NCBI RefSeq assembly: GCF_000974985.2
Contig: NZ_LAVA02000090.1
Span: 62,001 to 126,000, forward strand
Direction: 5' to 3'
Length of the DNA stretch: 64,000 nucleotides
Origin: Streptomyces mangrovisoli
GTDB taxonomy: Bacteria > Actinomycetota > Actinomycetes > Streptomycetales > Streptomycetaceae
Position 1 is the stretch's first letter. Each line of letters opens with the position of its first letter. The position numbers and the translations under genes were made by a program. Below are positions 2,237 through 30,705 of the stretch, piece after piece. The notes beneath the pieces are model-generated. The model was not told the DNA's origin. It was given only the letters and a program-made list of their open reading frames with translations, and did not search any database.

Positions 2237-4300
2237 TCAGAGGGTGTCGGTAACCGCCGGTACGTCGGGGGCGATGTGGGCGCCGAGGGCCTCGCGGTAC
2301 AGGGCGACCTCGGCCAGGAGGGAGCGGCGGACGCTGTCCGCCTTGCGGAAGCCGTGGCCCTCGCCCTCGAAGAGGAGGAAGCGGTGCCACACGCCGCGTT
2401 CGGCGAGGTGGTCCACGATCCGGGTGGCCTGGTCCGGGCGGCAGATGAAGTCGTCCGCGCCCTGGAGCATGACCAGGGGTGCGGTGATGCGGTCGGCGTG
2501 GGCGGCGGGTGAGATCTTCTCGAAGCGGGCCCGGTCCTCCGGCAGGACGCCGACCAGTGTGTCGACGTACCGGGACTCGAAGTCGTGGGTCTGCTCGGCC
2601 CGCCAGCTCGCCGGGTCGCTGATGGGGTAGTAGACGGTGCCCGCGCAGAACGCGTCGGTGTGGGCCAGGCAGGCCAGCGTGGTCCAGCCGCCGGCCGAGC
2701 CGCCGCGCACCGCCGTACGGTCCGGGTCGGCCAGGCCCTCGGCGGCCAGGGCGCGGGCGACCGTGACGCAGTCGTCGACGTCCACGACGCCCCACCCGCC
2801 GCGCAGGCGGTCGCGGTAGGCCCTGCCGTAGCCGGTGGAGCCGCCGTAGTCGACGTCGGCGACGACGAAGCCGCGGCTGGTGAAGAAGGAGTACTCCAGG
2901 TCGGCGGTGAGGCCGCAGGTGCTGGTGGGGCCGCCGTGCACCTGCACCAGCAGCGGCGGGAGTTCGCCGTCGGGTGCGGTGGCGGTGGGGTGGCTCGGGC
3001 GGTGCAGTACGTAGTGCACCGGGCGGCCCTGCGCGTCGTGGACGGTACGGCGTTCGGGCAGCGGCTGCCACGCGGCCAGCGGGTCCTCCGACTCGGGCCG
3101 CACGCGCAGGGCCGGTCCGGCGCCGGGCGCGAGGGGGACCGACAACAGGGCGGAGCCGAGGGCGGGATCGGCGGATCGGACCAGGACCCGTTCGCCGTCC
3201 GACCACAGGTCGCCCTGGAACCTGCTCCAGCCTGGGGCGAGTTCGCTCAGGCTGCCGTCCTCGGGGCTCCAACGGGAGAGTTTCTGCGGCCCGTTGCCGT
3301 GCGCGAACACCACGCCGTACGGGGACACGGTGAACCAGGCGGGGCCCACCCGCCAGACGGCGCCGGCGCAGTCCTCCTCCAGGGGAAGGACGTTGGCGAT
3401 CTTCAGCGCCTCGGGCCGGTCCGCCGCGAGGTCGACACGGTGCAGGTTCCACCAGCCGTCGGGGTCGGCCATGGCGTAGAGGGTGTCGGGGTCCGCCCAC
3501 TCCGCCTGGGAGACGGAGACCTCGGTGCCGTCGTGGCTGCCGCCGCACAGCCGTACGGCCTCGCCCGCGACGCCGTCGCGCAGTTCGGCGACCATCAACT
3601 CGGAGCTGTCCCACGGCATATGGGGGTGGTCCCAGCCGATCCAGGCGAGCCTGCGGCCGTCCGGGCTGGGGCGGTGTCCGGAGAGGAAGTGGTGCGAGCG
3701 GGCGACCACGCGCAGGGCCTCGGGGTCGTCCGCGGCGGCGCCCGACAGCGGTACGGCCACGATGTCGCGGGTGGTGCGGGCGGCCGGGTCGGCGTCGTCC
3801 GGTCCGGTCGCGGCGCGGGTGGTCTCGCGCACGCACCACACCTCGGTCCCGTCGGGTGACGGCACCGGGTCGGCCCAGCAGGTCTCCCGGCCGGGCGGAT
3901 CGGCCGGGGTGAGCGGCGCGGTCGCCGGGAAGGCCGTCTCCGACGCCGTCCCGATGCGGGGTACTTCGGCGCGGTGGAGCCGCTGGTCGCGGTGGTCGGT
4001 GAAGACCAGCAGGTGGCTGTCGGCGCCGGGCGCGGCGGGGCGCACCCAGTACGGCTTGCCGCCGTAGCCGAGCGAGCGGTTGCGGACCGAGATGCCGGGG
4101 GCGAGCACGGGCACGGGCTGCTCGTGGCCGGGGGCGTTGCGCAGCAGTCGTACGGTCGCGGTGGCCGGGTCGGAGGCGCACCACCAGTTCTCCTCCCCTG
4201 CCCCGGAGGGCCAGGCGGTGGACCCGGAGGCGTCGGCGACCGCCTCGGCGGTGATCGGTGACGGCCAGGTGCCGTAGGGCAGGTGGGACGTGCTGGGCAT
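2237..4300 (-). CDS. S9 family prolyl oligopeptidase / acylaminoacyl-peptidase-like
   Basis: This 687-residue protein has an N-terminal beta-propeller followed by an alpha/beta-hydrolase domain. The catalytic triad is visible as S535 in GGSAGGW, D617 in GADDF and H649 in EGHGF, with the oxyanion-region sequence VQHGGP upstream. No signal peptide is seen, so it should hydrolyse short imported peptides in the cytoplasm. I chose the ATG at 4300 because the codons upstream in the same frame overlap lysA antisense sequence, and a GGAG lies nine bases before this ATG. It is the last gene of a leftward set after the LysA-type decarboxylase and the XRE-cupin regulator, next to a divergent peptide-import operon. 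Confidence 0.93.
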   Translation of the reverse strand: MPSTSHLPYGTWPSPITAEAVADASGSTAWPSGAGEENWWCASDPATATVRLLRNAPGHEQPVPVLAPGISVRNRSLGYGGKPYWVRPAAPGADSHLLVFTDHRDQRLHRAEVPRIGTASETAFPATAPLTPADPPGRETCWADPVPSPDGTEVWCVRETTRAATGPDDADPAARTTRDIVAVPLSGAAADDPEALRVVARSHHFLSGHRPSPDGRRLAWIGWDHPHMPWDSSELMVAELRDGVAGEAVRLCGGSHDGTEVSVSQAEWADPDTLYAMADPDGWWNLHRVDLAADRPEALKIANVLPLEEDCAGAVWRVGPAWFTVSPYGVVFAHGNGPQKLSRWSPEDGSLSELAPGWSRFQGDLWSDGERVLVRSADPALGSALLSVPLAPGAGPALRVRPESEDPLAAWQPLPERRTVHDAQGRPVHYVLHRPSHPTATAPDGELPPLLVQVHGGPTSTCGLTADLEYSFFTSRGFVVADVDYGGSTGYGRAYRDRLRGGWGVVDVDDCVTVARALAAEGLADPDRTAVRGGSAGGWTTLACLAHTDAFCAGTVYYPISDPASWRAEQTHDFESRYVDTLVGVLPEDRARFEKISPAAHADRITAPLVMLQGADDFICRPDQATRIVDHLAERGVWHRFLLFEGEGHGFRKADSVRRSLLAEVALYREALGAHIAPDVPAVTDTL

Positions 4301-4482
4301 GAGTGGACACTCCGGGTGCGGGGCGGAAGGCGGGACGGGGCAGGGGGTCGGCGCCGTCACGGGACGGGCGGGGGTCCGGGCCGGCCCGGGACGGATCGGG
4401 GTCGGCCCGGACGAGACGCCGTAGGACCGGCGTCCGCGAGAGACGGGCGCGGCGGACGGGCGCGGCGGCCCGGTCCCGCGGA

Positions 4483-5868
4483 TCACACCGTGTTCAGTTG
4501 CACCGGTTCGCCGTGGGCGTCGCGGCGGCGCAGGTCCTCCGGGGTCTCCCGGCGGACCATCAGGCGCGCCTCGCCGTCGCGTACGGCGACGACGGCGGGC
4601 CGGGGCTGGGCGTTGTAGTTGCTGGCCATGGCGTGGTGGTAGGCGCCGGTGGCGGGGACCGCGAGGAGGTCGCCGGCGGCGATGTCGTCCGGCAGGGCGA
4701 TGTCGGGCACGACGACGTCCCCGCTCTCGCAGTGGCGGCCGACGACCACGGCGTGCACGGGCCCGCCCTCGGCGGTCCGGTTCGCGGTCCAGGCGGTGTA
4801 GCGGGCCAGGTAGAGGGAGGGCCGCAGGGCGTCGCTCATGCCTCCGTCGACGGAGACGAACCGGCGGCGCAGGCCGTCCTTGACCGCACCCACGCGGTAG
4901 AGCGTCACGCCGGCGGTGCCGATCATCGAACGGCCGGGTTCGACGGCGAGGCGGACCGGCGCCCCGGGCAGCGCCCGGTCCAGTCCGGCGCGCAGCGCGG
5001 CGGTGAACTCGGTCGGCTCCAGGCGTGGTTGGCCGGGCAGGTAGGGGATGCCAGCGCCGCCGCCGAGGTCGATCTCGTCGACCGTGATGCCGTGCCGTTC
5101 GGCGAGCGCCGCGACGAAGGCGCCGACCCGCTCGGCGGCGAGGGTCAGCCCCTCGGTCGCGGTGATCTGTGAGCCTATGTGGGAGTGCACGCCCGCCAGT
5201 CGCAGCGCGGGGCGGTCGGCGACGGCGAGGACGGCGCGTTCGGCGTGGCCGCCGCGGACCGGGAAGCCGAACTTGACGTCGTCGCCGCCGGTGGCCATGT
5301 AGTCGTGGGTCTCGGCGGCGACGCCGGGGGCGATGCGGACGTACACGTCCTGGACGCGGCCGGCCGCCGCGGCGGCGGCCGCGAGCCGGTCGATCTCCTC
5401 CAGGCAGTCGACGACCACGACCCCGACGCCGTGGGCGACTGCGGCCTCCAGTTCGGCCACGGACTTGTTGTTGCCGTGGAAGACGATCCGGGCGGGGTCG
5501 AAGCCGGTGTCGACGGCCATCCGGAGTTCGCCTCCGCTGCACACGTCCAGGTGGAGTCCTTCGGAGTCGACCCAGCGGACCATCTCCGCGCACAGGAACG
5601 CCTTGGAGGCGTAGTGCACCCGGTCCGCGCCGGATGCCCGCCAACTGCGGGCGCGGTGGCGGAAGTCGGCCTCGTCCACGACGTACAGCGCGGTGCCGCA
5701 GGCCGCGGCCAGGTCGTCCAGGGCCACGCCTCCCACGTGCAGTCGGCCGTCGACGGTCCGGGCGGTCAGCGGCCACACCTCGGGGGCGGTCTCCGGGGAG
5801 GCCGCGGGGGCCAGTCCGTCGGGCAGCTCGGTCCCTGCGGGGGCGGGCAGGGATGCGGCGGTGGGCAC
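4483..5868 (-). CDS. lysA: Diaminopimelate decarboxylase-like (LysA family) enzyme
   Basis: This 461-residue fold-III PLP decarboxylase has all LysA landmarks: the PLP lysine in YASKAF (K89), HIGSQ, the phosphate-binding EPGRS, VDGGMSDALRP, the active-site CESGD and GAYHHAMASNYN. The family removes the carboxyl group at the D-centre of meso-diaminopimelate to give L-lysine. It begins three bases after the stop of the XRE-cupin regulator and precedes an S9 peptidase, so it is not in a lysine-biosynthesis setting. It differs in several motif positions from what I recall of the housekeeping Streptomyces LysA and is probably a second copy. A role in breaking down diaminopimelate from cell-wall peptides is inference; another D-amino acid substrate is possible. 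Confidence 0.88.
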   Translation of the reverse strand: MPTAASLPAPAGTELPDGLAPAASPETAPEVWPLTARTVDGRLHVGGVALDDLAAACGTALYVVDEADFRHRARSWRASGADRVHYASKAFLCAEMVRWVDSEGLHLDVCSGGELRMAVDTGFDPARIVFHGNNKSVAELEAAVAHGVGVVVVDCLEEIDRLAAAAAAAGRVQDVYVRIAPGVAAETHDYMATGGDDVKFGFPVRGGHAERAVLAVADRPALRLAGVHSHIGSQITATEGLTLAAERVGAFVAALAERHGITVDEIDLGGGAGIPYLPGQPRLEPTEFTAALRAGLDRALPGAPVRLAVEPGRSMIGTAGVTLYRVGAVKDGLRRRFVSVDGGMSDALRPSLYLARYTAWTANRTAEGGPVHAVVVGRHCESGDVVVPDIALPDDIAAGDLLAVPATGAYHHAMASNYNAQPRPAVVAVRDGEARLMVRRETPEDLRRRDAHGEPVQLNTV

Positions 5869-5871
5869 GGG

Positions 5872-6570
5872 CTACTCCTCGGTGAGGACGACCAGCATGA
5901 GCAGGTCGTCGCTGGGGTCGGTGAAGTGGTGTTCGTCGGTGGCGGCGAAGTGGCAGCTGTCGCCGCGGCGCAGCAGCCGTACGGCGCCGCCCACCGACAC
6001 CCGGCAGGAACCGGCGAGGACGTGTGCGAACTCCTCGCCGGGGTGGGCCGTCGGGTGGTCGTGGTCGCCGAGGTCGGCGTGGAGCAGCCGGGCTCCGAGC
6101 CGGGTCGCGCCGGGGGCGGTGAGGTCGAAGATGCCGCGGTGCCCGTCGGCCTGGGCGAGCAGCGGTGCCGGGGCGAAGCGCGGCGGGAAGCCCGGGGCGG
6201 CCGCCGGGGCGACCGGCGTGGTGCCGCCGAGGAGTTCGGCGGGGGTGGCGCCGAGGGCGTCGGCGATCTGACCGAGGGTGCGGACCGTGGGGTTGGCGGC
6301 GCCGGACTCCATCTGGGAGACGTACGCCGGGGAGACGCCGGCCCGGGTCGCCACCGCGCTGAGCGTGAGTCCGGCGGCGCGGCGCACACGGGCGACGGAG
6401 GCGGCGAGCACGTCGCCGGTGTCCGCCCGGTCGGGGGGCGTGCTGCCCTTCGGGGGCGCGGGCGCCGCCTCCGCGCCCGAACCCGTGTCCGGGCCGCGAC
6501 GCAAGTTCTGTTCCGGGTCGGGGGGATCGGCCGAAGAGTTTTCCGCGCCGGTGGCTCTTGACGAGGTCAT
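5872..6570 (-). CDS. XRE family transcriptional regulator with C-terminal cupin domain
   Basis: This protein of about 232 residues has an N-terminal low-complexity leader, a helix-turn-helix of the XRE type (LTLSAVATRAGVSPAYVSQ with NPTVRTLGQIADALG following) and a C-terminal cupin (GEEFAHVLAGSCRVSVGG, then RRGDSCHFAA). This is the standard layout of XRE-cupin regulators that sense small amino-acid or polyamine ligands. It is the first gene of the leftward set with the LysA-like decarboxylase and the S9 peptidase, and is divergent from the RpiR-like gene, so it may control both directions. An upstream in-frame ATG at 6594 is an alternative start. Neither has a clear ribosome binding site, so the message may be leaderless. 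Confidence 0.87.
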   Translation of the reverse strand: MTSSRATGAENSSADPPDPEQNLRRGPDTGSGAEAAPAPPKGSTPPDRADTGDVLAASVARVRRAAGLTLSAVATRAGVSPAYVSQMESGAANPTVRTLGQIADALGATPAELLGGTTPVAPAAAPGFPPRFAPAPLLAQADGHRGIFDLTAPGATRLGARLLHADLGDHDHPTAHPGEEFAHVLAGSCRVSVGGAVRLLRRGDSCHFAATDEHHFTDPSDDLLMLVVLTEE

Positions 6571-6594
6571 GCGGCGACAGTAAGACTCACGCAT

Positions 6595-6698
6595 CGCTTA
6601 GATCAAGCAATCTGACACCGCCGTTTAACTGTCAGCAGAGACGCAGTTCAGCAGCCGGACTCTCGGGTGTGGGCTGCCCTGAACCGGAGGGGTGAGCA
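6595..6698. promoter_or_regulatory. Divergent intergenic region between XRE-cupin and RpiR-like regulators
   Basis: This 104-base divergent region must carry promoters for both arms of the peptide-salvage locus. It is more AT-rich than the flanks and contains the small inverted repeats GCTTagatcAAGC (6596-6608) and AGATcaagcaATCT (6600-6613), which overlap each other and could form an operator. A GGAGG at 6687-6691 serves the GTG start at 6699. The operator call is inference from symmetry only. Confidence 0.4.
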
Positions 6699-7790
6699 GT
6701 GACCGGACCGCTGGCGCCGACGCCGACCCTCGAGTTGCTGCGGGCGGCCGCCGTACTGTGCGGGCCCGCGGCGCAGCGCCTGTTCGAGGTGGTTGCGGAG
6801 GACTACCCGGCCTCGCTGGAGCGCCGTCCCGGTCAACTGCTGCGGGCGGCCGACGCGAGCGCCGCGGACCTCGACGGCCTGCTGGCGGCGGCCGGGGTCG
6901 CCTCGACCGACGACCTGCGCCTGCTCGCGGCCCGGGAGAGCGGTCTGCGCCTGGCGGAGCCGGATCTGCGGTTCACCAGCCGCGACCCGGAGTCCGAGCC
7001 GCGGGAGCGGTCGGCGCTGCGCCGGATGATCACCGCGGAGGAGGGCAACCTCCGCCGCACGCTGGCCGATCTCCAGGCCAACGGCGCCCTGGAGTTGGCG
7101 GCCGCGGCCCTGCTGCGGGCGCGGCGGCGGTGGGTGCTCGGCGACCTGAAGTCCGCCGGGTACGCGTCGCTGCTGACCAGCGACCTCACCAGCAGCATGC
7201 GGGACGTGTTCCTCGTACCGCCAGCCACGGGCGCCGCGGTCAACGCGATCAGCGACGCGCACACGGAAGACGTCCTGGTCGTGTTCAGCTTCCGCAACTA
7301 CAGCCGGCTGACGGTGGACGTGGCCCGGGAGTTCCACGCGCTGGGCGCCTCGGTGATCGCGCTGACGGACAGTTACACCAGTCCGGTGTGCGCCTTCGCC
7401 TCGCACGTACTGGCGGTGGACACCCGCAGCGAGTCGCCGCACCACTCTCCCACGGCGGTGGCGGCGGCGGCCCATGTGCTGGCGGCACTGGCCGCCGCGG
7501 GCGCCAAGGGGGCGGCCCGGCGCAGCCGGCGCCGAGCGGAGCTCTTCCGCTCCCTGGGCAGCTACGGCCTGGGCGAGACGCCGTCCGCCGCGACGGAGGG
7601 CGGGGCGGCGGGCGCGCCGGATCTCCCGGGACACGGCATCCGGGCCACGGACGCCCCGTCCACCCGCGCCACGGACGCCCCGTCCACCCCCGCCACAGAC
7701 CGCGCCACGAGCGACCCGTCCGCCCGCGCCACGGACAACCCCTCCGGCTTACCGGCCGTCCCCGGGGACGAGCCGCCGCACACGCGGTGA
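6699..7790 (+). CDS. RpiR/MurR-like transcriptional regulator with SIS domain
   Basis: This 363-residue protein has an N-terminal helical region resembling the HTH_6 fold (residues about 10-80) and a SIS sugar-phosphate-binding domain (about 125-275) with DVLVVFSFRNYSRLTVDVA and VIALTDSYTSPV, the usual SIS core. RpiR family members such as MurR sense amino-sugar phosphates, including MurNAc-6-phosphate; that ligand would suit a cell-wall salvage locus but is not shown here. The start is the GTG at 6699, behind GGAGG. Residues after about 300 are an unusual tail of Ala/Thr/Asp/Pro/Ser octapeptide repeats encoded by a 24-bp tandem repeat. The gene lies just upstream of the M20 gene, in the same direction. 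Confidence 0.82.
   Translation: MTGPLAPTPTLELLRAAAVLCGPAAQRLFEVVAEDYPASLERRPGQLLRAADASAADLDGLLAAAGVASTDDLRLLAARESGLRLAEPDLRFTSRDPESEPRERSALRRMITAEEGNLRRTLADLQANGALELAAAALLRARRRWVLGDLKSAGYASLLTSDLTSSMRDVFLVPPATGAAVNAISDAHTEDVLVVFSFRNYSRLTVDVAREFHALGASVIALTDSYTSPVCAFASHVLAVDTRSESPHHSPTAVAAAAHVLAALAAAGAKGAARRSRRRAELFRSLGSYGLGETPSAATEGGAAGAPDLPGHGIRATDAPSTRATDAPSTPATDRATSDPSARATDNPSGLPAVPGDEPPHTR
7644..7745 (+). repeat. 24-bp tandem repeat encoding ATDAPSTR-type octapeptides
   Basis: Within the 3' end of the RpiR-like gene, a 24-base unit starting GCCACGGACGCCCCGTCC is repeated almost exactly at 7644 and 7668. It continues in degenerate form from 7692 to about 7745. The unit is eight codons long and keeps frame, giving a disordered, acidic, Pro-rich tail. 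Such arrays usually vary in copy number between strains. Confidence 0.75.
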
Positions 7791-7921
7791 CCGCCCCGCC
7801 TCCCGCACCCTCCCCCGTCCCGTCTGTTCCCCGTTTCCGCGAGTCCTTCTCGCTGAGCCATCGGCGGCAGAGGCCCCGTCCTCGCGCCCTGTCGCCGGGA
7901 AAGCACGTGGTGGTTCCCCCT

Positions 7922-9334: not shown

Positions 9335-9345
9335 CCCCGCAGTCC

Positions 9346-9380
9346 CGCACCCCGCACCCCGCACCCCGCACCCCGCACAC
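9346..9380. repeat. Heptanucleotide CCCCGCA tandem repeat
   Basis: Right after the M20 stop codon the 7-base unit CCCCGCA is repeated about five times in direct orientation. It separates the M20 gene from the AT-richer 12-bp array upstream of the transporter. No function is evident. Confidence 0.7.
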
Positions 9381-9396
9381 CCATATGCATGCATAC

Positions 9397-9444
9397 ACCA
9401 ATGCATGAACCAATGTGCGCACCAATGTATGTACCAATAAATGC
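9397..9444. repeat. Four-copy 12-bp ACCAAT array upstream of the peptide-transport operon
   Basis: ACCAAT occurs at 9397, 9409, 9421 and 9433, exactly 12 bases apart, with semi-conserved filler (mostly GCAT/GTGC/GTAT). The block is much more AT-rich than the surrounding DNA and lies about 40-85 bases upstream of the substrate-binding-protein start. It could be a set of tandem operator half-sites or an A+T-rich promoter element. It happens to be open in the frame of the downstream gene, but that frame lacks a ribosome binding site this far up. Confidence 0.6.
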
Positions 9445-9481
9445 ATCCCACGGTCGCCCGCGTCCCCAGGAGAAGTCCACG

Positions 9482-11326
9482 ATGATCACGCCCGCCCCCC
9501 TGCGCAGAACCGGCCGCAAGGCCGCCGCGCTCGCCACCTCAGTGCTGCTCGCCACCGCCGCGGGGCTCGCACTCGCCCCGGCCGCCTCGGCCGAGGACGG
9601 CAGCAGCACCCTGCGGATGCCGATCACCGGGATCGGCATCGACTCCCTCAACCCGTTCCTCGCCTACTTCGCCGGCAGCCTGGACGTGTTCTCCGGCATC
9701 TACCCGGCGCTGGACCGGGTGGAGCAGGACGGCACCGTCAAGCCCTACCTGGCGGACTCCTGGACCACCTCCAGCGACAAGCTCACCTGGACCTTCAAGA
9801 TCCACAAGGGTCTGAAGTGGAGCGACGGCAAGCCGATCACGGCCGAGGACGCCGCCTGGACGTTCAACCTGATCATGACCAACTCCACGGCGGCCACCGC
9901 CAACGGCTCCCTGGTGAGCAACTTCGCCTCCGTCACCGCGCCGGACGCCACCACGCTGGTCGTGAAGACCAAGAAGCCGCAGGCCACCATGTTGTCGGTC
10001 AGCATCCCGGTCTCGGGCATCCCGATCGTGCCGAAGCACATCTGGGAGTCCCACGTGAAGGACCTCAAGAACTACAAGAACGACAGCTTCCCGATCGTCG
10101 GCTACGGCCCGTGGACGCTCACGGACTACAAGCCCGAGCAGTACGCCAAGTTCGACGCGAACAAGGACTTCCTGCTCGGCGCGCCCAAGTACGACCACAT
10201 GATCGAGCAGTCCTTCAAGAACACGGACGCCGCCGTGGCGGCCCTGCGCTCGGGGCAGTTGGACTACGTCAGCGGCCTCAACCCCACCCAGTACCAGGCG
10301 CTCAAGGGCCAGTCCGGCATCAAGGCCTACGAGCAGGTCGGCAACCGCTGGAACGGCATCGAGGTCAACGGCGGCGCCCGCACCCGCGACGGCAAGAAGA
10401 TCGGCACCGGTCACCCGGCACTCGCCGACTCCAAGGTGCGTGAGGCGCTCGCGCTCGCCATCGACCGGGCGACCATCGTGAAGAAGGTCCGCGACGGCCT
10501 GGCCGAGGTCGGCGGCAGCTACCTGCCGCAGTCGCTGCCGCAGTACGCGTGGCAGCCCTCCGCCTCGGAGAAGTTCGACTACGACCCCACCAAGGCCAAC
10601 TCCGTGCTGGACGAGGCGGGTTACAAGAAGGGCAAGGACGGCATCCGCGTCGACCCGAAGTCGGGCCGCAAGCTGGAGTTCCGCCTGGGCATCCACTCCG
10701 ACGACGACGCCGACGCCAAGGTCTCCACCTATCTCTCCGGCTGGTTCAAGGAGATCGGCGTCAAGGTCGACATCCAGTCGATGAGCTCCGCCAAGCTCAA
10801 CGCCGACCTGGCCAAGGGCGACTGGGACATCCTGATGGACTCCTGGTCGACCGGCCCCGACCCGACGTACCTGCTCGGCATCCAGACCTGCTCGGCCCTG
10901 CCCGACAGCAAGGGCGAGGGCGGCAGCACGGACTCGTTCTTCTGCGACAAGGACTACGACGACCTGTTCCTGCGTCAGCAGAGCGCCTTCGACGACAAGG
11001 AGCGCGCGGACCTGCTCCGGCAGATGCAGGCCATCCTGTACAAGGCCAACGAGAACATCATGATCTACAACGCCAGCGGTCTCGCCGCCTACCGCACCGA
11101 CAAGGTGAGCGGCATCGTGTCCGGCAAGGCGAACTCCGCCGGCGCCTACCCCGCGCAGGACTCCTTCCACCAGTACCTGAACGCGGCCCCCGCCAACGCC
11201 TCGTCCTCCTCCTCGGGCGGCAACTCCGGCACGGTGATCGGCGCTTCGGCGGCCGTCGTGGTCGTACTGGCCGCGGGCGGAGTGCTCATCGCGCGCCGCC
11301 GTTCCTCCTCCGACGACCGCGAGTAG
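9482..11326 (+). CDS. Oligopeptide ABC transporter substrate-binding protein (family 5) with C-terminal membrane anchor
   Basis: This 614-residue extracytoplasmic binding protein should capture peptides for the importer encoded next to it. Residues 1-37 are a Sec signal peptide ending APAASA, with no lipobox cysteine. The body shows family 5 (DppA/OppA) features such as YLADSWTTSSDKLTWTFK and SDGKPITAEDAAWTFN. The C-terminus has a Ser/Gly linker and one transmembrane helix (about 582-605) followed by ARRRSSS. The protein is therefore tethered by a C-terminal helix rather than a lipid, which is unusual for this class. The ATG at 9482 is preceded by AGGAG and starts the signal peptide; earlier in-frame ATGs in the 12-bp array are unlikely. 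Confidence 0.92.
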   Translation: MITPAPLRRTGRKAAALATSVLLATAAGLALAPAASAEDGSSTLRMPITGIGIDSLNPFLAYFAGSLDVFSGIYPALDRVEQDGTVKPYLADSWTTSSDKLTWTFKIHKGLKWSDGKPITAEDAAWTFNLIMTNSTAATANGSLVSNFASVTAPDATTLVVKTKKPQATMLSVSIPVSGIPIVPKHIWESHVKDLKNYKNDSFPIVGYGPWTLTDYKPEQYAKFDANKDFLLGAPKYDHMIEQSFKNTDAAVAALRSGQLDYVSGLNPTQYQALKGQSGIKAYEQVGNRWNGIEVNGGARTRDGKKIGTGHPALADSKVREALALAIDRATIVKKVRDGLAEVGGSYLPQSLPQYAWQPSASEKFDYDPTKANSVLDEAGYKKGKDGIRVDPKSGRKLEFRLGIHSDDDADAKVSTYLSGWFKEIGVKVDIQSMSSAKLNADLAKGDWDILMDSWSTGPDPTYLLGIQTCSALPDSKGEGGSTDSFFCDKDYDDLFLRQQSAFDDKERADLLRQMQAILYKANENIMIYNASGLAAYRTDKVSGIVSGKANSAGAYPAQDSFHQYLNAAPANASSSSSGGNSGTVIGASAAVVVVLAAGGVLIARRRSSSDDRE

Positions 11327-11329
11327 ACC

Positions 11330-12391
11330 GTGCCAGAGACCCTCGACGCCACCGTCACCGGCGCCGTCACGGCCGAGCCCGCCGCCCCGCGCGGCGGGCG
11401 CCGGCCCGGCTCCGGATTCGCCCGCTACCTGGCCACCAAGCTGGTGGCCGCGGCCATCAGCTTCCTGGCCACCCTCGTCATCGGGTTCGTCCTGTTCAGC
11501 CTGATGCCGGCCGACCCGGTGCAGTCCATCACCCGCGGCCGGCCCACCAGCGACGCACAGATGGCGCAGCTGCGCCACCAGCTCGGCCTGGACCAGTCGG
11601 TGCCCGAACGCTTCCTCCACTTCGTCACCGACACCCTGACCGGCCACCTCGGCACCTCCTGGGAGTTCCAGCAGCCGGTCAGCTCCCTCATCGGCGACCG
11701 CTTGTGGCCGACCCTGCTGCTGATGGGCACGGCCACCGCCATCTCGGTGGTGCTCGGTCTCTGGCTGGGCATCAGATCGGGCTGGAGGCACGGGAGTTGG
11801 CTGGACCGCATCGCCACCGGCGCCTCACTGACGCTGTGGTCGGTGCCGACGTTCTGGCTGGGCATGATCCTGCTGATCACCTTCAGCGTCGGCATCGGCC
11901 CGATCCCCGGCTTCCTGCCCGCGGGCGGAATGAGCGACCCGGCGATCACCGGCGGCCTCGACCACGTCCTCGACGTCGCCAAACACCTGGTCCTGCCCTG
12001 CCTGACCATGGTCCTGGTGATCTTCGCCCAGTACGTCGCCGTCATGCGCTCGTCGATCATCGACGAGCTGGGCAGCCCGTACCTGCTCACCGCGCGGGCC
12101 AAGGGCCTGCGCGACGACGACGTACGGCGCAGGCACGCGGTGCCCAACGCGCTGCTGCCCTCGGTCACCATGATCTTCATGCACGTGGGCACGCTGCTCG
12201 GCGGCGCCATCACCGTGGAGACCGTGTACTCCTGGCCGGGCCTCGGCCAGCTCAGCTACCAGGCCCTGAAGGTGCCCGACCTGCCGCTGCTGCAGGGCAC
12301 GTTCATCGTCTTCAGCGCGTCGGTGATCCTCATGAACCTGCTCGCCGACGTGATCTACCGCTTCCTCGACCCCCGGGTGCGTGCCCAGTGA
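11330..12391 (+). CDS. Peptide ABC transporter permease, DppB type
   Basis: This 353-residue inner-membrane protein has about six transmembrane helices and the BPD_transp_1 loop (near residues 245-275, containing ARAKGLRDDDVRRRHAVPNA) that docks with the ATPases. The N-terminal helix and following periplasmic domain with PADPVQ and LGLDQ are typical of DppB/OppB. It starts at a GTG four bases after the binding-protein gene and its stop overlaps the start of the next permease by four bases (GTGA), so all transporter genes are translationally coupled. Confidence 0.93.
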   Translation: MPETLDATVTGAVTAEPAAPRGGRRPGSGFARYLATKLVAAAISFLATLVIGFVLFSLMPADPVQSITRGRPTSDAQMAQLRHQLGLDQSVPERFLHFVTDTLTGHLGTSWEFQQPVSSLIGDRLWPTLLLMGTATAISVVLGLWLGIRSGWRHGSWLDRIATGASLTLWSVPTFWLGMILLITFSVGIGPIPGFLPAGGMSDPAITGGLDHVLDVAKHLVLPCLTMVLVIFAQYVAVMRSSIIDELGSPYLLTARAKGLRDDDVRRRHAVPNALLPSVTMIFMHVGTLLGGAITVETVYSWPGLGQLSYQALKVPDLPLLQGTFIVFSASVILMNLLADVIYRFLDPRVRAQ

Positions 12392-13341
12392 CCGACCACG
12401 AACCCCTCACCCTGGCCGTCGCCCCGCCGCAGGCTGAGGCCGACCCCGCGCCGCCGGTGGCCCCGGCCGCGCCGAAGCCGCGCCGCAACGGACTCGCCGG
12501 CTTCGTCCGCTCCTTCGTCCGCATCCGCTCCGGCGTCGCCGGCCTCACCATCCTGGTCGTGTTCGGCCTGCTGGCGATCTGCGCGCCGCTGTTCATCTCC
12601 GACAACGACCTCGACGTCATCAAGGTCGACGGGCCCTCCCTGCACTCCCCCACCGGCGGCTACCCGCTCGGCACCGACCAGGAGGGGCGCTCCATCCTCC
12701 TGCTGGTCATCTGGGGAGCGCGCTCCTCGCTGTCCATCGGTCTGATGGCCACGGTGCTGACGGTGGTGCTGGGCAGCGCGATCGGCCTGGTCGCCGGGCA
12801 CTACGGCGGCTGGATCGGCAAGGCGCTGATGCACCTCACCGACTGGTTCATCGCGCTGCCGAGCCTGCCGCTCGCCATCTCCCTGTCGGCGGTGATCGGA
12901 CAGGGCACCGCGTCCATCACGATCGCCATCGCGGTCACCAGCTGGTCCTCCACGGCCCGGCTGGTGCGGGCGCAGACCCTCGCGGTGGAGGCCAAGCCCT
13001 TCATCGAGCGGGCCAGAGCGCTGGGCGCGGGCGGCCCGCAGGTGATGCTGCGGCACGTCCTGCCGAACGTCACCCCGCTGATCCTCGTCTCCTCCACCCT
13101 GACGGTGGCCTCGGCGATCCTGTCCGAGGCGACCCTGACCTTCCTCGGTCTGGGCGACCCGACGGGCATCTCCTGGGGCGCGATGCTCAACTCGGCGCTC
13201 AGCGGCGGCGCCGTCACCTCCGGCGCCTGGTGGTACCTGTACCCGCCGGGCATCGCCATCCTGATCGTCGTCCTCGGCTTCACCCTGACCGGCCGCGCCG
13301 TGGAGACCATTCTCAACCCGAGGTCGGTGAAGACGCGTTGA
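12388..13341 (+). CDS. Peptide ABC transporter permease, DppC type
   Basis: This 317-residue permease pairs with the DppB-type subunit. It has a cytoplasmic Pro/Ala-rich N-terminus, the OppC_N helix, the sequence YPLGTDQEGRS diagnostic of DppC/OppC proteins, and the EAA loop ERARALGAGGPQVMLRHVLPN. The GTG start at 12388 overlaps the preceding stop codon (GTGA), and its own stop overlaps a TTG start of the first ATPase gene. Confidence 0.93.
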   Translation: MTDHEPLTLAVAPPQAEADPAPPVAPAAPKPRRNGLAGFVRSFVRIRSGVAGLTILVVFGLLAICAPLFISDNDLDVIKVDGPSLHSPTGGYPLGTDQEGRSILLLVIWGARSSLSIGLMATVLTVVLGSAIGLVAGHYGGWIGKALMHLTDWFIALPSLPLAISLSAVIGQGTASITIAIAVTSWSSTARLVRAQTLAVEAKPFIERARALGAGGPQVMLRHVLPNVTPLILVSSTLTVASAILSEATLTFLGLGDPTGISWGAMLNSALSGGAVTSGAWWYLYPPGIAILIVVLGFTLTGRAVETILNPRSVKTR

Positions 13342-14387
13342 ACCCGATGCTGGAGGTCAAGGACCTCGCGGTCACGTATCGCGGCGGCGGGCGCACGGTG
13401 CCCGCCGTGCGCGGGGTGGACCTCACCCTGGACGCCGGGCAGACGCTCGGCCTGGCCGGCGAGTCCGGTTCGGGCAAGTCCACGCTGGCGATGAGCCTGC
13501 TGCGGCTGCTGCCGGCCGCCGCGAAGGTCACCGGCCAGGTTCTCTACCAGGGCGAGGATCTGCTCACCGCCAAGTGGAGCCGGATGCGCGCGGTGCGCTG
13601 GGCGGAGGCCTCCGTGGTCTTCCAGGGCGCGATGACCGCGCTCAACCCGGTGCACACCATCGGCGACCAGCTCGTCGAGCCGATCCTGCTGCACGGCCGC
13701 AGGGCCGGCGAGGACGGCGGCCGGATCACCGACAAGCAGGCCCGCACCCGCGCGGCCGAACTGCTGGAGTCGGTGGGCGTCCCGGCCCGTCGGATGCGCA
13801 GCTACCCGCACGAGTTCTCCGGCGGCCAGCGCCAGCGCATCATGATCGCGATGGCGCTCGCCTGCCGCCCGAACCTGATCATCGCGGACGAGCCCACGAC
13901 GGCGCTCGACGTGATGGTGCAGGCCCAGATCCTGGACCTGCTGTCGGACCTCGTACACGAGGAGGGCATCGGCGTCATCATGATCAGCCACGACCTGTCC
14001 GTCCTCGGCCAGATGTGCGACCGGCTGGCCGTGATGTACGCCGGTGAACTGGTCGAGTCCGGCCCGTCCCGCCAACTCCTGGACGACCCGCGCCACCCCT
14101 ACACCCGGGCGCTGTCCCGCGCCTTCCCCACCATCGGCGACCCCGCCTCCCGCAGGGCCCCAGCCGGCCTGCCCGGCGACCCGCCCGACCCGGCCGCCCT
14201 CGGCACCGGCTGCCCGTTCGCGGCCCGCTGCCCCGACGTGCACGAGATCTGCGCGACCACGCCCGCACGTCTGGTGCAGGCCGGTCCGGACCGGCTGTCG
14301 GCGTGCCTGCGGGTGCTGCCCGGTTTCCCCGACGTCGCCACGGCCCCGCCCGTGCCCGAACCCTCCGCGGAAGGAGCGCGCTCATGA
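13338..14387 (+). CDS. Peptide ABC transporter ATP-binding protein, DppD type
   Basis: This 349-residue ATPase powers the importer. Walker A is GESGSGKST, the ABC signature is FSGGQRQR, Walker B is LIIADEPTTALD and the switch histidine follows in ISHDLS. The C-terminus has the oligopeptide/dipeptide C-terminal domain with GCPFAARCPDVHEIC. A TTG at 13338 overlaps the permease stop (TTGA) and is six bases after GGTGAAG. The ATG at 13347 is the alternative start, with a less well placed ribosome binding site. Confidence 0.93.
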   Translation: MNPMLEVKDLAVTYRGGGRTVPAVRGVDLTLDAGQTLGLAGESGSGKSTLAMSLLRLLPAAAKVTGQVLYQGEDLLTAKWSRMRAVRWAEASVVFQGAMTALNPVHTIGDQLVEPILLHGRRAGEDGGRITDKQARTRAAELLESVGVPARRMRSYPHEFSGGQRQRIMIAMALACRPNLIIADEPTTALDVMVQAQILDLLSDLVHEEGIGVIMISHDLSVLGQMCDRLAVMYAGELVESGPSRQLLDDPRHPYTRALSRAFPTIGDPASRRAPAGLPGDPPDPAALGTGCPFAARCPDVHEICATTPARLVQAGPDRLSACLRVLPGFPDVATAPPVPEPSAEGARS

Positions 14388-15412
14388 CCGCCACCACCAC
14401 CGGCACCGTCACCGGACCCACCGCGGCCACGGCGCCCGCGCTGGAGGTCCGCGACCTGCACATCACCTATCCGCCGCGGGCCGGCCGCGGCCCCGCCCGC
14501 GCGGTGGACGGCGTCGACCTCGAACTGGGCCGCGGCGAGATCCTCGCGCTGATCGGCGAGTCCGGCTGCGGCAAGTCCACCCTGGCCCGCGCGCTGACCG
14601 GACTGGTGAAGCCGACGTCCGGGCAGGTGCTGTGCGACGGCGAGCCGCTGCGCTACACGAGCGCCGCGCTCAAGGCGCACCGCCGCAAGGTGCAGTTCGT
14701 CCTCCAGGACCCCGGCGGCGCGCTGAACCCACGGCAGAACGTCTTCGACGCCGTGGCCGAGGGGCCACGGCTGCACCGGATGCGGGACGGCCTCGAACAG
14801 CGGGTGCACACCGCGCTCTCCAAGGCGGGGCTGCGTCCGCCGGAGCAGTTCCTGTCGCGCTTCCCGCACGAGATGTCCGGCGGTCAGCAGCAGCGCGTCG
14901 TGATCGCGGGCGCGCTGGCGCTGGAGCCGTCCGTGATCGTCGCCGACGAGCCGGTGGCCTCGCTGGACGCCTCGGTGCGCGGCGAGATCCTGAAGCTCGT
15001 CCTCGACCTGCGCCGCGATCTCGGCCTGTCGTCCCTGGTGGTCAGTCACGACCTGGGCCTGGCCTGGAACATCGCCGACCGGGTGGCGGTGATGTACCTG
15101 GGCCGGATCGTCGAGGTCGGCACCGTCGAGGAGGTCCTGCTCGCGCCCCGCCACCCGTACACCAAGGCGCTCCTGTCCGTGGTGTCCGCCGAGGGCGCGC
15201 GCGGCGGGCGGCCGCAACTGCTCCAGGGCGAGCCGCCGGACCCGACGGCCGTGCCCGAGGGCTGCCGGTTCCATCCGCGCTGCCCGCTGTGGGCGGGCCT
15301 CGATGCGGCGGACCGCGCGGAGGCGGGCTGCGACCGGCGTACCCTGCCGGTGCTGCCGGCGCAGGCGCCGGCCGGCGGTCAGGCCGCGTGTCACCTCGCG
15401 AGCGTCTCGTGA
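14384..15412 (+). CDS. Peptide ABC transporter ATP-binding protein, DppF type
   Basis: This 342-residue second ATPase forms the heterodimer with DppD. It shows Walker A GESGCGKST, the signature MSGGQQQR, Walker B VIVADEPVASLD and VVSHDLGLA, plus the C-terminal oligopeptide-transporter domain (EGCRFHPRCPLW). The ATG at 14384 overlaps the previous stop (ATGA) and follows AAGGAG. Its stop overlaps the GTG of the acyltransferase gene, linking the importer with the D-amino-acid enzymes in one message. Confidence 0.93.
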   Translation: MTATTTGTVTGPTAATAPALEVRDLHITYPPRAGRGPARAVDGVDLELGRGEILALIGESGCGKSTLARALTGLVKPTSGQVLCDGEPLRYTSAALKAHRRKVQFVLQDPGGALNPRQNVFDAVAEGPRLHRMRDGLEQRVHTALSKAGLRPPEQFLSRFPHEMSGGQQQRVVIAGALALEPSVIVADEPVASLDASVRGEILKLVLDLRRDLGLSSLVVSHDLGLAWNIADRVAVMYLGRIVEVGTVEEVLLAPRHPYTKALLSVVSAEGARGGRPQLLQGEPPDPTAVPEGCRFHPRCPLWAGLDAADRAEAGCDRRTLPVLPAQAPAGGQAACHLASVS

Positions 15413-16314
15413 ACTCGACGGCGACACCCAGGACGGCACGCCGGTCCCCGCACGGCCCGCCGCTGGTCGTGCGGGACGTGGACGGCCCGCGCGAGATGGC
15501 CGACTGCGTCGCGCTGTACGAGCGGGTCATGGGCCTGCGTCCCGGCGACGGCAGCCTCAACCCGCGCCTGCTCACCGCGCTCCAGCACAACAGCGGCCTG
15601 GTCGTCGGCGCCTATCTCGACGACGACCTGGTCGGATTCACGTACAGCTTCCTCGCCCGCGAGCACGGCACGGACCGCACGAACGGCATGGACTGCTACG
15701 GGCCGCGCCTGTACCAGTACTCGCAACTCGCCGTGGTCGCGCACGAGCGCCAGGGCCTCGGCATCGGACGCCTGCTCAAGCTCGGCCAGCGCGACCGCTG
15801 TCTCGCGGAGGGCACCACGCTGATCCGCTGGGCGTACGATCCGATGCAGACCCGCAACGCCCACTTCAACCTGGACGTGCTCGGCGCGGTCGTGGACTCC
15901 TTCAAGCCCGCGATGTACGGCACCGCGGGTTTCGGCGCCGCCACCGGCGAGTCCACCGACCGCTTCATCGTCTCCTGGCACCTGGACGGCCCGGCACGCC
16001 CGGCCTGGCCCGCACCCGCCGCGCCGCCCGGCGGCCACCGCGCCGGCGAGGTCTACGACGACGGCGACGACCGGATCGTGGTCCTGCCCGACGACTGGGA
16101 CCGGCTGCGGGCCGAGACCGGCCCGGAGCACGCCGCCCTGCTGCGCGCCCGGCTCACCCGCACGTTCGCCCGGCTGCTCGCCGACCGGTCGGCCGTCTCC
16201 TGCGTACGGCTGCGGGGCGGCCTCGCCGCGTACCGCTTCACCCCCAGGCCGCCGCACATGCCACGTTTCCCCGCCCCTGACCGGGCCCCGCACGGTAGGA
16301 CGACCCACCCATGA
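15409..16314 (+). CDS. GNAT family N-acyltransferase (COG3375-like)
   Basis: This 301-residue protein carries a GNAT acetyl/succinyl-CoA fold: LVVGAYLDDDLVGFTYSFL (beta strands), QLAVVAHERQGLGIGRLLKLGQ (CoA pyrophosphate loop) and IRWAYDPMQTRNAHFNLDVLGA. This type of large GNAT is found beside N-succinylamino-acid racemases in other bacteria, where it acylates the amino group of D-amino acids. The C-terminal third (about 195-300) is a variable extension. The GTG start overlaps the dppF-type stop (GTGA), and its stop overlaps the racemase ATG (ATGA). Donor and acceptor cannot be read from the sequence; succinyl-CoA and a D-amino acid are inferred from the neighbour. Confidence 0.85.
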   Translation: MNSTATPRTARRSPHGPPLVVRDVDGPREMADCVALYERVMGLRPGDGSLNPRLLTALQHNSGLVVGAYLDDDLVGFTYSFLAREHGTDRTNGMDCYGPRLYQYSQLAVVAHERQGLGIGRLLKLGQRDRCLAEGTTLIRWAYDPMQTRNAHFNLDVLGAVVDSFKPAMYGTAGFGAATGESTDRFIVSWHLDGPARPAWPAPAAPPGGHRAGEVYDDGDDRIVVLPDDWDRLRAETGPEHAALLRARLTRTFARLLADRSAVSCVRLRGGLAAYRFTPRPPHMPRFPAPDRAPHGRTTHP

Positions 16315-17465
16315 CCGTCACTCTCGCCGAGATCGAGCTGGCGCTGGTCCGGCTCGACCTCGTCCACTCCTTCGAGACCAGCTCGCACCGCAAGTCCCAC
16401 CTGGAGCACATCGTCGTCCGCGCCACCGCCACGGACGGCAGCGTCGGCTGGGGCGAGTGCGCCTCGCCCAGCGACCCGTACTACTGCGGCGAGTCCACCT
16501 GGAGCTGCTGGCAGGTGCTCGGCGAGCACCTGGCCCCGATGCTGCTCGGCCGGCCCTGGGAACACCCCGGTGAGGCGGCCCGCCTCACCGCGAAGGTGAG
16601 CGGCAACCACTTCGCCCGCGCGGGCCTCGACATGGCCTGCTGGGACCTGTACGGGCAGCGGCAGGGCGAGCCCCTCGCGGACCTGCTCGGCGCCGAGGCC
16701 GACGCGGTGCCCGCCGGGGTGAGCCTCGGCATCGAGCCGACGATCGACGCGCTGCTCGCGCAGGTCTCCCGGCATGTCTCCGACGGCTACCGCCGCATCA
16801 AGCTGAAGATCCGTCCCGGCTGGGACCTCGAACCGGTCCGCGCCGTCCAGGCCGCCTTCCCCGGCGTCGCTCTCCAGGTGGACGCCAACACCGCCTACCG
16901 ACCCGAACAGGAGGCGGTGCTCGCCGAGTTGGACGGCCGTGGACTGCTGATGATCGAGCAGCCGTACGCCGCCACCGATCTGCTCTCGCACGCCCGCCTC
17001 GCCGCGCGGCTCGACACCCCGGTCTGCCTCGACGAGTCCGTCACCACCGCGGACGTGCTGCGCACCGCACTGCACCTGGGCGCCGCCGACGTCGTCAACA
17101 TCAAGGTGTCCCGGCTCGGCGGGCTCGGCCCGTCCAAGACCGTGCACGACCTGTGCCTCCAGGCCGGTGTGCCGGTGTGGTGCGGCGGAATGCACGAGTT
17201 CGGCATCGGCCGGGCCGCCAACCTCGCCCTCGCGGGCCTGCCCGGGTTCACCCTGCCCTCGGACGTCTCCGGCTCCGACAAGTACTACCGGCGCGACATC
17301 GTCACACCGCCGATCCGCGCCGTGGACGGCATGGTCGCCGTGCCCCGCTCCCGCCCCGGCATCGGCCTGGACGTCGACGTCGAGGAACTGGCGCGGCACA
17401 CCGTGCGCACCTGGAGGATCCGTCCGGGCGCCCACCTCACCGCCCCGAAGGAGCAGGCAGCATGA
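16311..17465 (+). CDS. N-acylamino-acid racemase / o-succinylbenzoate synthase family enolase-superfamily enzyme
   Basis: This 384-residue enzyme has the muconate-lactonizing subgroup of the enolase fold. The catalytic residues are all present: K164 and K166 of the KxK motif, metal ligands D191, E216 and D241, and the opposite base K265 in NIKVSR. Members are either OSBS (menaquinone) or N-succinylamino-acid racemases, or both. No other menaquinone gene is nearby, while a GNAT, two M20 deacylases and a D-aminopeptidase are, so racemisation of N-acyl-D-amino acids is the better reading. It is coupled by ATGA overlaps on both sides. Confidence 0.88.
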   Translation: MTVTLAEIELALVRLDLVHSFETSSHRKSHLEHIVVRATATDGSVGWGECASPSDPYYCGESTWSCWQVLGEHLAPMLLGRPWEHPGEAARLTAKVSGNHFARAGLDMACWDLYGQRQGEPLADLLGAEADAVPAGVSLGIEPTIDALLAQVSRHVSDGYRRIKLKIRPGWDLEPVRAVQAAFPGVALQVDANTAYRPEQEAVLAELDGRGLLMIEQPYAATDLLSHARLAARLDTPVCLDESVTTADVLRTALHLGAADVVNIKVSRLGGLGPSKTVHDLCLQAGVPVWCGGMHEFGIGRAANLALAGLPGFTLPSDVSGSDKYYRRDIVTPPIRAVDGMVAVPRSRPGIGLDVDVEELARHTVRTWRIRPGAHLTAPKEQAA

Positions 17466-18301
17466 AGGTCCTGATCTCGGCCGACATGGAGGGCGTCACC
17501 GGCGTCACCTTCCCCGACGACTGCGAGCCCGGCCACCCCAGATGGGAGTACCACCGGCGCTTCCTCACCGACGACGTCAACGCCGCGATCGCCGGTCTCG
17601 CGGCCGCCGGCGCCACGGAGATCCTCGTCAACGAGGCCCACGCCGACCAGCGCAACCTGCTGCTCGACCGGCTCGACAGGCGGGCCACGCTGCTCATCGG
17701 CACCCACAAGCCGCTCGGCATGATGGAGGGCGTCGACCGCTCCCCCGACGCGGTCGCCTTCGTCGGCTACCACACCGGAGCAGGCCAGCCCGGCGTCCTC
17801 GCGCACACCTATCTGCCCAACACCATCACCGCGGTCCGCATCAACGGCGAACCGGCCTCCGAGGGCCGCATGAACGCGCTCCTCGCCGACGAGTACGGCG
17901 TCCCGGTGATCCTCGTGACCGGTGACGACCTGGCCTGCGAGGACGCCCGCGGCTGGGCGCCGCACGCCGCGCACGCCGTGGTCAAGACCTGCGTGGACCG
18001 CTACTCCGCGATCTGCCTGCCGCCGGAGCTGAGCGCCGCCCGGATCACCGAGGCCGCCCGCGAGGGCCTCACCGCCCTGCCCGCCCCCACCGGCGCGATC
18101 GCCCCGCCCGCCGAGGGCTACACCTACGAGGTCTCCTTCGACGCCGCCCACCTCGCGCCCGCCGCCTGCTACATCCCCGGAATCGTCCAGACCGACCCGC
18201 TGACCGTGCGGTTCACGCTGCCGACGATGTACGAGGCGATCCGCTGCTTCCGCGCGCTGACCCGGGTCGTCACCTCGGCCGTGGAGAACTGCTATGGCTG
18301 A
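17462..18301 (+). CDS. D-aminopeptidase, M55 family (DppA-type)
   Basis: This 279-residue zinc peptidase should release D-amino acids from the N-terminus of D-peptides such as D-Ala-D-Ala. The DppA metal ligands are all at the expected spacing: D8 and E10 (ADMEG), H60 (NEAHAD), H104 (GYHTGAG) and E134 (EGRMN), with H115 matching the proposed nucleophile/base. It starts at an ATG overlapping the racemase stop and follows GAAGGAG. Bacillus subtilis DppA is encoded with a dipeptide transporter in the same way, so the gene order supports use of cell-wall D-dipeptides. Confidence 0.93.
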   Translation: MKVLISADMEGVTGVTFPDDCEPGHPRWEYHRRFLTDDVNAAIAGLAAAGATEILVNEAHADQRNLLLDRLDRRATLLIGTHKPLGMMEGVDRSPDAVAFVGYHTGAGQPGVLAHTYLPNTITAVRINGEPASEGRMNALLADEYGVPVILVTGDDLACEDARGWAPHAAHAVVKTCVDRYSAICLPPELSAARITEAAREGLTALPAPTGAIAPPAEGYTYEVSFDAAHLAPAACYIPGIVQTDPLTVRFTLPTMYEAIRCFRALTRVVTSAVENCYG

Positions 18302-19460: not shown

Positions 19461-19583
19461 CCGACGGCCTTCGTCCGCCCCGTCGCCGCCCGCAGCCGCA
19501 GGGGGCGTGAGAACCCCGCGCCCGCCCCACACCTCGGCCCGCCCGCCGGGCCGCACCCTTCACCTTCACCCCCAAGGAGTCCC

Positions 19584-20519: not shown

Positions 20520-20542
20520 CCGGCCACGCGAACGGAACCGAC

Positions 20543-20583
20543 AGGGCGGGGAGCGGGCCAAAGGGTCCGCTCCCCGCCCTTTT
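20543..20583 (+). terminator. Rho-independent terminator of the peptide-salvage operon
   Basis: A perfect 14-bp stem (20543-20556 with 20567-20580; AGGGCGGGGAGCGG) with a 10-base loop is followed by a short T run. It lies 24 bases after the L,D-carboxypeptidase stop. Confidence 0.9.
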
Positions 20584-30501: not shown

Positions 30502-30705
30502 TCAGCCGCGGACGATGTTCTCCGCCTGGGGGCCCTTCTGGCCCTGCGTGACGTCGAAGGTGACCGGCTCGCCCTCGATCAGCTCGCGGTAACCGTTGCC
30601 GGAGATGTTCGAGTAGTGGGCGAAGACGTCCGGGCCGCCGCCGTCCTGGGCGATGAAGCCGAAGCCCTTCTCGGAGTTGAACCACTTCACGGTGCCGCTG
30701 GCCAT
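30502..30705 (-). CDS. Cold-shock protein, CspA family
   Basis: This 67-residue single-domain OB-fold RNA chaperone has both nucleic-acid-binding motifs, KGFGFI and DVFAHYS. It melts RNA structure and is commonly abundant at low temperature or during growth in Streptomyces. AAGGA lies six bases before the ATG. A second, very similar copy is encoded at 49824-50027 on the other strand. The two differ mainly after residue 35. Confidence 0.96.

Follow-up and report, generated by a model that had tools for sequence, protein, structure and literature searches.

How one gene cluster might provide for the whole handling of peptides with D-amino acids, from uptake to usable L-amino acids, is the question raised by a locus of Streptomyces mangrovisoli that lies in a stretch of 64,000 nucleotides (contig NZ_LAVA02000090.1, positions 62,001 to 126,000; hereafter the window) of a 9.17 Mb genome rated 100% complete. 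A first-pass annotation had read it as a self-contained salvage system for the peptides of murein. The evidence consists of gene content, gene order, active-site residues and co-conservation, all of which were observed; on these grounds the cluster is real and co-conserved, and it is probably (at about 0.7) a route for using peptides with D-amino acids by import, cutting and D-to-L conversion. Its parts resemble known ones; their combination and a special branch of racemase look new.

Every activity and substrate, and any induction, is proposed from the observed features. An Opp/Dpp-type importer would take in short peptides, from which the LD-carboxypeptidase LdcA would cut off C-terminal and the aminopeptidase DppA N-terminal D-residues, the remaining peptide being cut by an S9 peptidase and by one of two M20 hydrolases (M20a). 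Free D-amino acids would then be acylated by a GNAT-type acyltransferase using acyl-CoA, the N-acyl-amino acids would be inverted by an enolase-superfamily racemase (NSAR), and the second M20 enzyme (M20b) would free only the L-form, making the conversion one-way. Cell-wall stem and cross-link peptides, with their D-Ala and D-Glu, would be the likeliest source, and LysA would, in this lineage, convert meso-diaminopimelate (meso-DAP) to lysine. As far as it joins a D-peptide importer to D-peptide hydrolysis and to inversion by GNAT, NSAR and M20 enzymes, the earlier reading is supported by families, residues and co-conservation.

A conserved unit of importer, hydrolases and racemase

Gene calling and Pfam/NCBIfam scans of the window proteins, on which all family assignments rest, recovered every family named in the first-pass annotation at about the place it had been given. 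The glutamate decarboxylase and the XRE-cupin regulator had no place in that annotation. The genes are the following.

734..2098, minus strand: glutamate decarboxylase (GAD), loosely linked; TIGR01788 561 bits, cut-off 380
2237..4300, minus strand: S9 (prolyl-oligopeptidase family) peptidase; PF00326 E 5e-45, GGSAGG nucleophile motif
4483..5868, minus strand: LysA-type diaminopimelate decarboxylase, second genome copy; TIGR01048 425 bits, cut-off 298
5872..6594, minus strand: XRE-cupin transcription regulator, 3 bases from LysA; PF13560, PF01381 and PF07883 above cut-off
6699..7790, plus strand: SIS-domain protein (RpiR-like); PF01380 44.8 bits
7922..9334, plus strand: M20a hydrolase, PRK07906 subfamily; NF005913 623 bits, cut-off 382
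9482..11326, plus strand: solute-binding protein SBP_bac_5; PF00496 E 1e-86
11330..12391, plus strand: Opp/Dpp-type permease 1; PF00528, PF19300
12388..13341, plus strand: Opp/Dpp-type permease 2; PF00528
13338..14387, plus strand: peptide ABC ATPase 1; PF00005, PF08352 (oligo_HPY)
14384..15412, plus strand: peptide ABC ATPase 2; PF00005, PF08352
15409..16314, plus strand: putative GNAT-fold N-acyltransferase; QGLGIG motif, PF00583 matches among relatives
16311..17465, plus strand: NSAR-type N-acylamino-acid racemase of a distinct clade; TIGR01928 302 bits, cut-off 201
17462..18301, plus strand: DppA-type D-aminopeptidase (M55); PF04951 301 bits
18294..19460, plus strand: probable M20b deacylase, carboxypeptidase-G2-like, partner of GNAT and NSAR; PF01546
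19584..20519, plus strand: S66 LD-carboxypeptidase (LdcA); PF02016, PF17676

The peptide importer claimed at the outset is there, with its solute-binding protein, two permeases and two ATPases (9482-15412), and the solute-binding protein carries, by eye, an export signal and a C-terminal membrane anchor; no export signal was seen on inspection by eye of the S9 peptidase, which, as annotated, runs with the LysA-type decarboxylase divergently from the main run, on the minus strand. The four-base overlaps said to join the transporter to the racemase module are real and run from the permeases on: overlaps of -4 are found between the permeases, between permease and ATPase, between the ATPases, between GNAT and NSAR and between NSAR and DppA, while DppA and M20b overlap by 8 (-8), and 131, 147 and 123 bases separate M20a, the solute-binding protein and LdcA, respectively, from the genes before them. 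The GNAT start, a GTG at 15409, forms a GTGA overlap with the stop of the ATPase and has the same position in the four relatives read; an alternative start would leave a gap of 56 bases after the ATPase.

The unit recurs in the same order, at 76-97% identity, in three other genomes (G095, G003 and G324) and, up to a contig end, in S. adustus (LysA to DppA), which argues that the cluster is not a product of chance; some of the compared stretches are truncated where a contig ends, L017 the most severely. In a genome of another family (G1094; L115/L131, 34 kb), a quartet of M20b, GNAT, SIS-protein and racemase genes adjoins M20a, the solute-binding protein, two permeases, a fused ATPase, S9 and LdcA, so that 11 of the unit's 12 plus-strand genes (all but DppA, with the ATPases fused) stand together with S9; neither DppA nor LysA nor GAD was seen beside it there. 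This arrangement suggests that importer, cutters and inverters form one functional unit, to which DppA and LysA are additions or in which they can be replaced. By these comparisons the LysA linkage is a lineage-specific trait, limited to this Streptomyces lineage; matches to LysA above 90% occur only in unit-bearing genomes (3 of 150, own included, among the matches listed). The glutamate decarboxylase adjoins S9 in one of the related genomes (G095, L062) and was not found in the stretches of the two others (G003, L063; G324, L060), and on this ground it was rejected as an integral part of the cluster.

Active sites of the enzymes and the SIS protein

DppA, in B. subtilis the first gene of the dpp neighbourhood, was claimed to have all of its metal ligands, and alignment with 1hi9 bears this out: the ligand residues D8, E10, H60, H104 and E134 (E133 in B. 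subtilis) are conserved. Alignment of LdcA with PA5198 places GFSD (118), LLEDV (214) and GHG (280) at the positions of the Ser-Glu-His triad of S66 enzymes; together with its two Pfam domains this agrees with the annotated L,D-carboxypeptidase. The decarboxylase has the substrate and PLP motifs ASKA, HIGSQ, EPGR, SDALR, CESGD and GAY, shared with Mycobacterium tuberculosis LysA, which is also its closest solved structure; a higher-scoring LysA (480 bits, TIGR01048) is encoded elsewhere in the genome. That the window gene might encode a D-ornithine/D-lysine decarboxylase was considered and rejected, the DokD model giving 136 of 700 bits vs 425 of 298 for the LysA model. For M20b the best NCBIfam models (PRK07338, PRK07473 and PRK06133) are all below cut-off.

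The assignment of the enolase-superfamily protein as an N-acylamino-acid racemase holds by the TIGR01928 model, by its nearest solved structures in a PDB sequence search (1r0m and 1sja, N-acylamino acid racemase) and by its catalytic residues. K164, K166, D191, E216, D241 and K265, which comprise the two catalytic lysines (KxK and K) and the D/E/D metal ligands, are present and invariant in alignment A5; in alignment A2, L045 and L046 have Arg in place of K164. R268, three residues past K265, is found in all 11 aligned rows and corresponds to Amycolatopsis R266, a second-shell Arg linked to racemase activity. The racemase homolog of L045 and L046 is a divergent one (40-41%) and lies in a cluster common to both that looks biosynthetic, its neighbours being, by eye, a class IV aminotransferase and RraA-like and MlrC-like proteins.

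The GNAT family was retained by way of relatives and a motif: seven of nine sequences in one alignment (A7) hit PF00583 with E 1 or better (the strongest at 1.5e-7), in a wider set (A1) 13 of the 24 do so with E 0.1 or better, and the protein itself has the acyl-CoA motif QGLGIG. A PDB sequence search hit nothing but Keap1/kelch and designed kelch-like chains, over a short stretch, which amounts to no match, and a 24-row profile found no matches in the PDB.

Only half of the RpiR/MurR-like regulator described at first could be recovered. The SIS domain (PF01380) is there, as the sole Pfam domain; no helix-turn-helix (HTH) family was found by Pfam even at E 10, and no N-terminal HTH_6. A divergent HTH may be present. 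The AF2 model, built from 4 sequences, has a mean confidence score (pLDDT) of 40.6, and five relatives aligned from outside Streptomyces are without the N-terminal segment of the window protein.

Two modules and a separate racemase clade

Comparison of gene neighbourhoods indicates that the locus is made of two merged modules, DppA-M20a-S9-LdcA and GNAT-NSAR-M20b. As for the first, a second DppA is encoded in the same genome on contig C114 (L064), where it heads a tight operon with M20, S9 and LdcA genes of the same kinds, and the four proteins are 45-53% identical to those of the window. The nearest S66 protein of the genome to the window LdcA (252 bits) is in this operon, the only other match having 40 bits over residues 7-152, and so is the nearest S9 (512 bits; next 90 bits); a third, more distant M55 on C121 has none of M20, S9 or LdcA beside it. 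Among the 12 Streptomyces of a sample of the phylum, DppA and M20 are together in all 12, S9 is intact in 11 (in L103 it is a short remnant only) and LdcA was found in 10. M20a and S9 recur in DppA core loci and would, for this reason, belong with the peptide-cutting enzymes. The two M20 genes had been annotated as deacylases alike; this was rejected, since their partners differ: M20b keeps its role beside GNAT and NSAR, while M20a groups with DppA, S9 and LdcA, a link that the annotation had missed. The core operon has the same four families as the window but is without the importer, GNAT, racemase and M20b of the window cluster, and no paper describing it was found in a literature search. 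Just upstream of the core operon of L101 lies a glutamate-decarboxylase homolog (46%).

The second module is widespread. A racemase search gave 50 matches in 121 Streptomyces genomes, own included, and 40 of the 49 non-self loci were fetched (best E of the nine others, 2.6e-64). GNAT adjoins NSAR at 37 of the 40 loci, and M20b at 16. A hydrolase of the M55, S12 or M19 family within 9.5 kb on the same strand is found at 14 of the 16 loci with M20b vs 1 of the 24 without (Fisher p 7e-8, in a post hoc test that drew its S12 and M19 queries from loci with M20b and was not corrected for ancestry); homologs of the window importer are nearby at 10/16 and 0/24, respectively (Fisher p 9e-6). The 14 hydrolases are M55 at two loci, S12 at five and M19 at seven, two of the M19 loci also having a weak S12 match; Pfam confirmed M19 in three representatives and S12 (PF00144) in one, and the S12 protein is below the cut-off of every model, that for D-aminopeptidase included. 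Enzymes of the S12 and M19 families are able to act on D-residues, and the attachment of the cassette to such unrelated hydrolases in other Streptomyces fits D-peptide salvage. In the phylum sample, with NSAR matches in 73 of 396 genomes and 26 loci classified, GNAT is adjacent at 21/26, M20b at 2/26 and M55 at 0/26.

The Streptomyces loci termed class B resemble the window cluster in having M20b-GNAT-NSAR with a D-peptide-type hydrolase and, often, an ABC importer; they differ in having M19 or S12 instead of DppA, a racemase with the classical GGMLETG loop and no SIS protein found. Often they have a PucR/AdeR-like regulator, whose best NCBIfam match is AdeR (110 of 700 bits), an activator of an alanine pathway, and this speaks for the D-peptide route. 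Cassettes joined to S12 or M19 were noted at L011, L012, L014, L015 and L019 and at L016, L018, L021, L022, L036, L039 and L043, some with a peptide importer or the PucR/AdeR-like regulator, and at L081 GNAT-NSAR-M20b stands beside a branched-chain-type amino acid ABC importer rather than a peptide importer.

The racemase of the window belongs to a different group, class A. In a class-level search of 394 genomes, 17 matches with E of 1e-98 or better lay outside the genus, and at 16 of them the same quartet is found, i.e. M20b divergent, then GNAT, SIS protein and racemase on one strand. The 16 loci are spread over three families (14 in f91, one each in f89 and f8); the seventeenth and weakest match (L129) is of the other kind. 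In an 85-sequence tree (FastTree local support, rooted on L045 by choice; L004 and L005, duplicates of the L008 and L007 genomes, and L017, cut by a contig end, are omitted), the 16 quartet and five Streptomyces racemases form one clade (21/21, local support 0.98), to which the L009 racemase is sister. All 21 members have both MHEFG and NIKVSR, and none of the other 64 sequences has either; MLETG is found in 53 of these 64 (16/16 in class B, 37/48 in class C), and most of the remainder have near variants of it. The searched loci of classes B, C and others (L009-L113 minus L060 and L061) yielded no SIS homologs. The class-A quartet with its SIS partner is the more novel part of the cluster.

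A bolder view of this clade is possible though rather unlikely: it would be a functionally separate pathway, shared by several actinobacterial families and run by GNAT, SIS protein, racemase and M20b as an obligate quartet, with a different acyl group or a wall-specific amino acid for its substrate; the SIS protein would be a working partner, or a phospho-sugar sensor coupling the salvage of peptides to that of muramic-acid sugar, and not an ordinary DNA-binding regulator; and Streptomyces and at least one distant actinobacterium would have joined the quartet to importer, LdcA, S9 and M20a as an assembly line from peptide to L-amino acid.

Two further observations concern class A and its sister. 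The L009 racemase homolog (50%) has MHDFG, no GNAT or SIS neighbours and, by eye, apparent acyl-CoA genes nearby. At L114, L123 and L128, and in part at L121, the quartet is accompanied by a CitMHS-like transporter, a class A beta-lactamase-like hydrolase and an Amidohydro_3 enzyme, for which the best model (PRK09061) is below cut-off.

Known systems and rival explanations

An irreversible D-to-L amino acid pathway of GNAT, NSAR and M20 enzymes was reportedly described by Sakai et al. in 2006 (Biochemistry 45:4455), and is said to proceed with succinyl-CoA through N-succinyl-D-amino acids and N-succinyl-L-amino acids. In common with it, the window has genes for acyltransferase, racemase and M20 deacylase together, with catalytic residues intact; it differs in its own racemase clade (NIKVSR, GGMHEFG) and SIS partner and in the junction with a peptide importer, DppA, S9, M20a and LdcA.

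The statement in the first-pass annotation that no described system joins these functions was too strong. In B. subtilis, the dppB-E/ykfA-D neighbourhood has a peptide importer together with an LD-carboxypeptidase and an enolase-superfamily epimerase, in a murein pathway (PMC2954226). Importer, LD-carboxypeptidase, enolase-superfamily enzyme and DppA are common to both, whereas no YkfC endopeptidase was seen in the window, which has LysA and S9 in addition. The window also has an N-acylamino-acid racemase and not an Ala-Glu dipeptide epimerase (YkfB), so that GNAT and M20b would be needed. A literature search, with most subscription papers outside its reach, gave no description of this gene combination and, by titles, no paper on the reuse of cell-wall D-amino acids by Streptomyces.

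Several findings weigh against a route for D-peptides as outlined above. The GNAT protein itself has no Pfam match over cut-off (best PF13480, E 0.005), and its structure model, from 4 sequences, is unusable for the fold (mean pLDDT 44.9). The racemase has the loop GGMHEFG, with H295 and F297 in it, in place of the usual GGM-L/V-E-T/S-G (GGMLETG), which may mean another acyl group or side chain than in the known NSAR. Neither peptidase reaches the stricter models: DppA has 169 bits vs 430 for the NCBIfam DppA equivalog (NF058634), and is by this measure an M55 member, not the Bacillus equivalog, and LdcA has 109 bits vs 378 for muramoyltetrapeptide carboxypeptidase (NF008424). As many as 21 of the 40 GNAT-NSAR loci of the genus have neither M20b nor an M55, S12 or M19 hydrolase nearby, and the adjacency test carries the reservations given with it. 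Co-conservation, which the first-pass annotation had proposed as a check, is largely borne out by the intact units, by the near-full set of G1094 and by the separate recurrence of the sub-modules, but the full set is rare: 4 of 392 Streptomyces genomes, own included, have a DppA ortholog of the window kind.

Whether the peptides come from murein is a narrower matter. That the cluster is specifically a murein-peptide route is favoured by the presence together of LdcA, DppA and importer, by the DAP-decarboxylase residues of LysA, by the position of the glutamate decarboxylase next to S9 in the window and in G095, and by the ties of S9 and S66 to M55 at two loci of the genome. However, the self-contained salvage of murein claimed at first does not stand: a gamma-D-Glu-DAP endopeptidase of NlpC/P60 or MpaA type was not found among the scanned locus genes, and Ala-Glu epimerase models give the racemase only 73 of 500 and 66 of 343 bits, below cut-off, the rest of the genome not having been searched for either. 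LysA and GAD, moreover, were not seen with the unit in L115/L131, nor was GAD found in the stretches of G003 and G324. The Streptomyces wall contains LL-DAP and not the meso-DAP used by LysA, and foreign murein would therefore be needed as the source. Taken as a whole, a dedicated murein route seems unlikely. An importer with no clear specificity (NikA and Opp4A being the best NCBIfam models, all below cut-off) and the three unrelated hydrolase families of related loci would suit, instead, other peptides with D-residues, e.g. those that neighbours make nonribosomally, taken up as food or for detoxification; yet the S66 enzyme is kept in the unit and in 10 of the 12 core loci, which fits the trimming of C-terminal D-Ala, and this alternative, too, is an improbable one.

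Far less probable still is that the enolase-superfamily enzyme is the o-succinylbenzoate synthase MenC of menaquinone synthesis, placed here incidentally, which the first-pass annotation had named as a possible refutation. The model that it passes (302 vs 201 bits), TIGR01928, does bear the name of that enzyme; however, no MenD is found over cut-off (best 58 of 244 bits) in a genome rated complete, two genes of the MqnA/MqnD (futalosine) family are over cut-off, and the racemase gene overlaps those of GNAT and DppA by four bases each. The objection is a weak one, and the identity was rejected on the menaquinone genes.

If the proposed D-peptide route is correct, it provides a testable set of genes in which an inversion cassette is combined with hydrolases of three unrelated kinds (M55, S12 and M19), as well as a clade of racemases whose active-site loop is altered and whose SIS partner is unexplained. 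NSAR racemases serve in enzyme cascades making chiral amino acids (PMC7431475), and a clade with another specificity would be of practical interest for this reason.

Upstream of the gene for the solute-binding protein, four ACCAAT boxes stand at exact 12-base steps (9397..9438, plus strand); they account for four of the five plus-strand ACCAAT of the window, which has one more on the minus strand. L004 has the same array with 3 boxes and L060 with 4, boxes intact and spacers varied, whereas L005 and L006 lack it. The array may serve as an operator, or it may have originated as a tandem repeat. Beyond LdcA, at 21249-23042, the window encodes a 597-residue protein with no Pfam match at E 0.001, which is 93% conserved beside LdcA in G324 (L061); and two small, closely similar proteins, cold-shock-like by eye, are encoded at 30502-30705 and 49824-50027.

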